A DNA stretch of 33,008 nt from Candidatus Aenigmatarchaeota archaeon (GTDB lineage Archaea; Aenigmatarchaeota; Aenigmatarchaeia; GW2011-AR5; JAGGXF01): positions 1-33,008 of the forward strand of contig JAGGXF010000018.1 of the NCBI GenBank assembly GCA_021163205.1, written 5' to 3'. The translations under genes and the position numbers were made by a program. Within the stretch, counting starts at the first letter, position 1; every line of letters begins with the position of its first letter. The notes under the pieces were generated by a model. That model was not told the DNA's origin. It ran no database searches and worked only from the letters and a program-made list of their open reading frames with translations. Shown here in pieces: positions 23,869 to 27,910 of the stretch.

Positions 23869-23991
23869 GGGGTCATAATCTAGCCAGGTAGGATGGCAGG
23901 CTCCAGACGTTTCTGGAGCGTTGAGATGCCTTCGGCATCGGTGATATGAAAGAGAAACCTGCTAACGGGGGTTCAAATCCCTCTGACCCCA
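23869..23991 (+). tRNA. tRNA-Trp(CCA) with a ~50-nt intron (about 23907-23956) in the anticodon loop
   Basis: Acceptor GGGGTCA/TGACCCC, D-arm ATCT/GGAT, anticodon stem GCAGG/CCTGC, loop CTCCAG|..A (CCA at 23903-23905), T-arm GGGGG-TTCAAAT-CCCTC, A73. Confidence 0.93.
23921..23948 (+). ncRNA. Putative intron-encoded kink-turn / half box C/D guide module in tRNA-Trp
   Basis: TTGA-[GATGCC-TTC-GGCATC]-GGT-GA-TA, preceded by TCTGGAG complementary to the anticodon loop. Confidence 0.55.
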
Positions 23992-27738: not shown

Positions 27739-27910
27739 TGCCGGAGACGGGTTTCGAACCCGCGACCTCTACGTTTCTGCGCCTTGATTCTTTCATTGCT
27801 GCGAAAACAGCTCAAAGCTCATAAAACTTATGAGCGTAGCGCTCTACCATTTCTCCAGTTTTTCAGCACCCTCGACCATTTGGCAGAAAAACTGACTGAG
27901 CTACTCCGGC
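27739..27910 (-). tRNA. tRNA-Met(CAT), elongator-type, with two apparent introns (D-loop about 27851-27895; anticodon loop about 27775-27828)
   Basis: Minus strand: GCCGGAG TA GCTC AG[intron]TGGTA GAGC G CTACG CTCATA[intron]A CGTAG AGGTC GCGGG TTCGAAA CCCGT CTCCGGC A. All arms pair only if both insertions are removed. Confidence 0.88.
27790..27817 (-). ncRNA. Putative intron-encoded kink-turn / half box C/D guide module in tRNA-Met
   Basis: Minus strand TTGA-[GCTG-TTTTCG-CAGC]-AAT-GA-AAG, preceded by TTATGAG complementary to the CTCATAA anticodon loop. Confidence 0.5.

Follow-up and report, generated by a model that had tools for sequence, protein, structure and literature searches.

The anticodon intron of a tRNA-Met(CAU) gene in the window, as we call the whole 33,008-nt stretch of DNA analyzed here, very probably constitutes an embedded box C/D guide with a single kink-turn, predicted on sequence grounds to direct Nm34 formation in unspliced pre-tRNA. 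The anatomy of the intron, the register and covariation of its guide, its phylogenetic breadth, and the protein genes that accompany it in the genome were all directly observed and are presented below, together with the way such a guide might work.

The anticodon intron of tRNA-Met(CAU)

The genome carrying the window is an archaeal assembly of 811 kb, with ~9% missing, and its phylum is very probably Aenigmatarchaeota. Direct reading of the minus strand reveals a tRNA-Met gene with an anticodon arm CTACG-CTCATAA-CGTAG, interrupted by two introns (Table 1). This gene is missed by ARAGORN in default mode and by Rfam at gathering thresholds, the Rfam tRNA model scoring 19 bits, below threshold, on its 3' part. 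It is almost identical to the tRNA-Met gene of a close relative of the same genus (L042). The anticodon stem lacks the three G-C pairs of initiators, and we assume the tRNA to be of the elongator type.

Table 1. Features of the two tRNA genes in the window that carry the guide design
Feature	Position	Strand	Remarks
tRNA-Met(CAU) gene, including two introns	27739..27910	-	Direct reading of acceptor GCCGGAG/CTCCGGC and of the D, anticodon, and T arms
Anticodon-loop intron of tRNA-Met (37/38), 54 nt, with predicted guide unit	27775..27828	-	Excision restores stem CTACG/CGTAG and loop CTCATA+A
Anticodon CAT	27830..27832	-	C34 at 27832, predicted 2'-O-methylation target
Anticodon loop CTCATAA	27834-27828	-	Direct reading
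Met guide TTATGAGC	27817..27824	-	Complementary to bases 31-37 and first intron base
Met box D-like TTGA	27812..27815	-	T27816 between guide and TTGA; GA invariant at same spacing in relatives
Met kink-turn stem-loop GCTG-TTTTCG-CAGC	27798..27811	-	GCTG 27811-27808 / CAGC 27801-27798, loop TTTTCG
Met box C-like AATGAAAG	27790..27797	-	3-nt bulge AAT, sheared GA, then AA
Second intron of tRNA-Met, in D loop	27850..27895 (boundaries ±1)	-	9-bp helix CAGTTTTTC/GAAAAACTG
tRNA-Trp(CCA) gene, same design	23869..23991	+	Rfam RF00005 50 bits; ARAGORN tRNA-Trp with 50-nt intron
Anticodon intron of tRNA-Trp	23907..23956	+	Target C34 = 23903
Trp guide TCTGGAGC	23912-23919	+	
Trp box D TTGA	23921-23924	+	
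Trp box C-like GTGATAT	23941-23947	+	Stem GATGCC/GGCATC, bulge GGT

The anticodon-loop intron begins one base past the anticodon. On the minus strand, GCTCATAA (27835-27828) and TTATGAGC (27824-27817) form an 8-bp helix closed by a 3-nt loop, in which G27820, five bases upstream of TTGA, faces C34. The box D-like motif is followed by the GCTG/CAGC hairpin, a 3-nt bulge, tandem G-A pairs, and two further pairs, U-A and U-A. The first-pass annotation of this DNA had described each of these elements (the anticodon loop followed within 3 nt by its complement, the TTGA in register with C34, and the hairpin with its bulge and G-A pairs), and we find them all in place. The GA/GA geometry and the 3-nt bulge are those of a box C/D kink-turn with tandem sheared G-A pairs. 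At the level of predicted pairing, the intron is confirmed as a single putative box C/D unit with one kink-turn, its boxes arranged as D-stem-C. With 7-8 bp, its guide helix is short, and another pairing is favored in the minimum-energy fold of the excerpted Met arm; the fold of the full pre-tRNA-Met includes the 8-bp guide hairpin. The boxes in the window are degenerate (TTGA and AATGAAAG); relatives, L076 and L099 among them, have canonical boxes, with a box C of the AUGAUGA or AUGAUAA kind. In the bulge-helix-bulge at the splice sites of the window's Met intron, inspected by eye, two of the four central pairs are possible (CTCA with GCAG) and the motif looks noncanonical; relatives such as L124 form all four.

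Archaeal C/D sRNAs usually contain two box pairs, and there is one pair here. The 54-nt Met intron holds no second CUGA or RUGAUGA-like box and so departs from the canonical bipartite layout with two guides; it would work like one half of a bipartite archaeal C/D sRNA. The D-stem-C order would correspond to the internal C'/D' half of such an sRNA, and the intron, if circularized, would read as an ordinary C-guide-D unit closed by a terminal stem.

The tRNA-Trp gene on the opposite strand of the window carries an intron with an identical order of elements, as the first-pass annotation had claimed, and its predicted fold displays both hairpins (z -3.26). The same annotation had proposed one intron family retargeted in two different tRNAs. 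Comparative data across DPANN phyla bear out the retargeting; the number was too low, since at least five tRNAs are concerned (see below).

The second intron of tRNA-Met lies in the D loop. Its excision yields GCTCAGTGGTAGAGC, which is exactly the D arm of the same-genus L042 gene; L042 has no D-loop intron, and a different one is found in L040, of the same family. Introns are present in most tRNA genes of this 0.8-Mb genome, frequently in the D loop or at two sites of one gene (L014, L015, L016, L019, L021, L027, and others), and as a result standard finders miss or mistype many of these genes.

Recurrence, register, and covariation

We scanned one genome per GTDB species for the Met design, using a pattern made of anticodon, guide, TGA, and T arm, with box C not required. 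This returned 53 loci, namely 52 tRNA-Met genes and one stray. The stray, which lies in a Gammaproteobacteria bin (L087), was discarded, having no tRNA context. Nearly all of the 52 genes belong to DPANN (Micrarchaeota, Aenigmatarchaeota, Nanoarchaeota of the Nanoclepta type, and Nanohaloarchaea), with additional ones in Geothermarchaeota/Nitrososphaeria; the prevalence in Nanoclepta and Micrarchaeota is that of this one-genome-per-species scan. A box C-like ATGA or GTGA is found downstream of box D in these 52 genes. Carriers of the intron include Micrarchaeum A_DKE (L088) and ARM-1 (L119), which can be grown in host-symbiont culture. The first-pass annotation had made its reading depend on homologous architecture in relatives, and this architecture is found in the tRNA-Met genes of dozens of species. 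Among close relatives, the design of the Met intron is kept while its sequence drifts: guide, TTGA, and stem persist in the same-genus G001, whose box C (AATGACA) is better, and G002 has an ATGA box and a different but still paired stem (ACTGC/GCAGT). Two bins outside DPANN (L105 and L132, Nitrososphaeria/Geothermarchaeota) carry the tRNA-Met cassette, which may reflect ancient origin, transfer, or mis-binning. The tRNA-Met of L045 (G007) has a very short plain intron with no boxes, possibly a loss state.

An open scan of all the loci retrieved, asking for any anticodon loop, then its complement, then box D, gave Met, Trp, Lys(UUU), Leu(CAA), and Leu(UAA). Two further hits were odd and not tRNA-like, and another, of the Leu(CAA) type, had +4 spacing. 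The reversed-sequence control, run in an earlier pass on 241 loci, returned zero matches. In the window's own genome the cassette occurs in Met, Trp, and Leu(CAA) (C38:9935-10015), and the Leu(UAA) and Lys(UUU) versions occur in relatives; G098 has the cassette in all five tRNAs and G058 in four. The Leu(CAA) gene of the window's genome (L257, minus strand, ~1500-1640) seems to carry an additional insertion in its T arm. An Arg(CCT) intron (L006) that looked guide-like by eye was rejected, the register not being satisfied. In Pyrococcus, C/D sRNAs are reported to target position 34 of exactly four tRNAs, namely Leu(CAA), Leu(UAA), Met, and Trp (PMC7994747), all of which are among the five cassette tRNAs. 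This published list was not used in the Met, Trp, and Lys searches; it prompted the search for Leu(UAA), and Leu(CAA) surfaced before being sought.

Because the species-level scan itself required TGA, the register of box D was determined across the phylum with D-box-free patterns asking only for anticodon loop, complement, and T arm; hits without tRNA shape and near-duplicates were removed by eye beforehand. In 34/35 Met and 21/21 Trp introns, the GA of box D lies exactly four bases past the six-base core of the guide, and the same exact spacing (+4/+5) is found in 24/26 Leu(CAA), 31/34 Leu(UAA), and 23/38 Lys(UUU) introns. With box D so placed, N5 (the fifth base before it) stands opposite base 34 in ~133 of the 154 introns of the five tRNAs, which is the register of box C/D guides. 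Neighboring offsets are near zero, save for a secondary +6 class (seven Lys at +6/+7, two Leu(UAA), one Leu(CAA)) in which the spacing shifts N5 onto base 32. In the Lys(UUU) introns of G065, G066, G137, G139, G145, G039, and G148, box D is 2 nt farther, and by the N+5 rule C32 instead of U34 would therefore be targeted. Some Lys(UUU) introns have a box D with U for G (UUUA/CUUA).

Covariation was assessed with an explicit register and pair counts, kinship being handled by sequence clustering. A Watson-Crick match links base 31 to guide base N2 in 118 of 137 distinct introns, through A-U, G-C, U-A, and C-G pairs alike. For Met alone the count is 62/64, with both A-U and G-C in use, and clustering at 75% similarity leaves 22/23, against a mean of 11.9 in shuffles. 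One step further out, base 30 and N1 form a Watson-Crick pair in none of the 137. At the other end of the helix, the first intron base matches the facing guide base in 105/141 introns, more than shuffles give for any of the tRNAs. Pairing is thus conserved with the unspliced pre-tRNA as its target, and the helix extends over the 5' splice site. The stem of the kink-turn is flush with box D and followed by a 3-nt bulge in 31 of 62 clustered introns (five at most for any other bulge size), with many compensatory pair types at each of its positions in the clustered set. In Met alone, a flush stem of at least 3 bp with a 3-nt bulge is present in 35/70 introns, and no other bulge size exceeds four.

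Proposed mechanism and alternative readings

The protein partners of a box C/D guide are all encoded in the window's genome: the fibrillarin (E 1.4e-90) and Nop5 (E 1.4e-51) genes are adjacent on C32, and a reading frame for L7Ae was found. We infer that these proteins assemble on the intron. L7Ae would bind the D-stem-C kink-turn, Nop5 and fibrillarin would join it, and the 7-8 nt guide directly 5' of box D would pair with the anticodon loop of an unspliced pre-tRNA, either its own or another copy, allowing fibrillarin to 2'-O-methylate the base opposite N5, that is, C34. Since the guide-target helix runs over the 5' splice site, it would have to open before the splicing endonuclease cuts, and methylation would thus come before splicing; because the helix covers that site, the two events would be mutually exclusive in time. 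With its guide rewritten for each anticodon, one cassette would serve three tRNAs here (Met, Trp, and Leu(CAA)) and two more in relatives (Leu(UAA) and Lys(UUU)).

As to the molecule on which the guide works, we slightly favor action in cis on its own pre-tRNA over action in trans. That the guide acts exclusively in trans, the excised intron (probably circularized by tRNA ligase) forming a one-guide C/D RNP that methylates other pre-tRNA or tRNA molecules, is a serious possibility, although we judge it somewhat improbable. The tRNA-Trp intron of Haloferax has been shown to work in trans (PMC7994747; PMC11408192), and in Nanoarchaeum equitans the tRNA-Met intron RNA is stable and abundant and circular permuted C/D RNAs occur (PMC3491384). 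However, the covariation of the first intron base with the guide means that pairing with spliced tRNA is not what is conserved, and with guide and target 3-14 nt apart the cis hairpin forms readily in folds, another unspliced copy remaining compatible as a target. A stronger version of the cis reading holds that these are a class of self-guiding introns, in at least five tRNAs of DPANN and some Thermoproteota-side lineages, in which the splicing of a pre-tRNA requires prior methylation, in cis, of its own wobble base. On present sequence data we would give this an even chance. If true, such obligatory methylation would explain the persistence of introns in reduced genomes.

The remaining alternatives dispense with methylation altogether. 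L7Ae alone binds kink-turns and has other roles in archaea, so that the intron might be a platform for regulation or processing, such as intron stabilization or the timing of splicing. The N+5 register at base 34, the covariation of N2 with base 31, and the sharp stop at N1 are nevertheless properties of methylation guides, which makes this very unlikely. We find it highly improbable that the hairpin merely helps the pre-tRNA to fold or be spliced, with the D- and C-like motifs incidental: archaeal splicing does need intron-exon pairing at the anticodon, and the short plain intron of L045 shows the same complementarity without boxes, but a continuous helix over 37/38 would block a splice site rather than form one, and neither the single spacing of the box-D GA, nor a bulge of exactly 3 nt, nor a tRNA set that matches known C/D targets would be accounted for. 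Finally, the motif is short, and the 26 TATGAGNNNNGA sites in the window's genome equal the chance expectation, as would suit fortuitous self-complementarity beside an anticodon. The probability of this is negligible, given that the arrangement recurs in the tRNA-Met genes of so many species and never in the reversed-sequence control. An embedded guide for Nm34 is thus the reading that we retain.

The first-pass annotation had suggested checking whether the genome lacks stand-alone guides for C34. Among the perfect TATGAG-NN-NTGA sites of the available genome (~91% of the whole), three occur besides the intron; two of them look protein-coding, and none has the layout of a C/D sRNA.

Relation to known guides

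An intron-borne guide was already established for tRNA-Trp and suspected for one other tRNA. The euryarchaeal tRNA-Trp intron RNA is ~100 nt long and contains C/D plus C'/D' boxes that target C34 and U39 (PMC2584109); the tRNA-Trp guide was called a unique example in a 2014 review (PMC4090602). The introns described here resemble those of pre-tRNA-Trp in Haloferax volcanii and Pyrococcus (sR50) in being, by prediction, intronic C/D guides for C34 of their own tRNA that use fibrillarin, Nop5, and L7Ae. They differ in their size of ~50 nt, in having a single kink-turn (D-stem-C order) and a single target, in the placement of the guide a few nucleotides from the anticodon, and in their distribution over five tRNAs. 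Neither anticodon intron of the window falls into the dual-guide type defined by tRNA-Trp with C34 and U39, Met being another tRNA and the Trp intron having one guide only, with C as base 39.

The closest precedent is the 66-nt intron of tRNA-Met in N. equitans, a stable and abundant RNA predicted to be a C/D sRNA with a possible role as methylation guide (Randau 2012, PMC3491384). It has in common with our Met intron box D, a box C variant, a GC hairpin, and a DPANN host, and in N. equitans the RNA was observed. In contrast to the present set, it was reported from one species, and the passage describing it names no target nucleotide, the comparison made here being one of descriptions (PMC3491384). 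The first-pass annotation mentioned no intron-encoded Met guide; with the 2012 prediction, the idea has some precedent. In a 2008 survey set, the Met guide was "always exonic", i.e., outside the intron (Grosjean 2008, PMC2584109). We found no report, within the open-licence literature, of intron guides in tRNA-Leu or tRNA-Lys or of the compact adjacent design. What is new is that the predicted set is broader and more systematic than reported, covering five tRNAs in several phyla of genome-reduced archaea. The persistence of archaeal tRNA introns is an open question, on which the extension of the Trp guide logic to five tRNAs bears. The compact design could couple wobble-base methylation to splicing, and exact predictions follow as to which nucleotide, which tRNA, and which order of events.

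The stand-alone Cm34 guide of tRNA-Met, known from Pyrococcus (sR49) and from H. volcanii relatives, involves the same nucleotide and chemistry but is encoded outside the tRNA. Likewise, the Pyrococcus guides for position 34 of Leu(CAA) and Leu(UAA) are separate sRNAs (PMC7994747), whereas those predicted in Aenigmatarchaeota are intron-borne. The observations point to a mutual replacement of stand-alone and intron-borne Nm34 guides in evolution.
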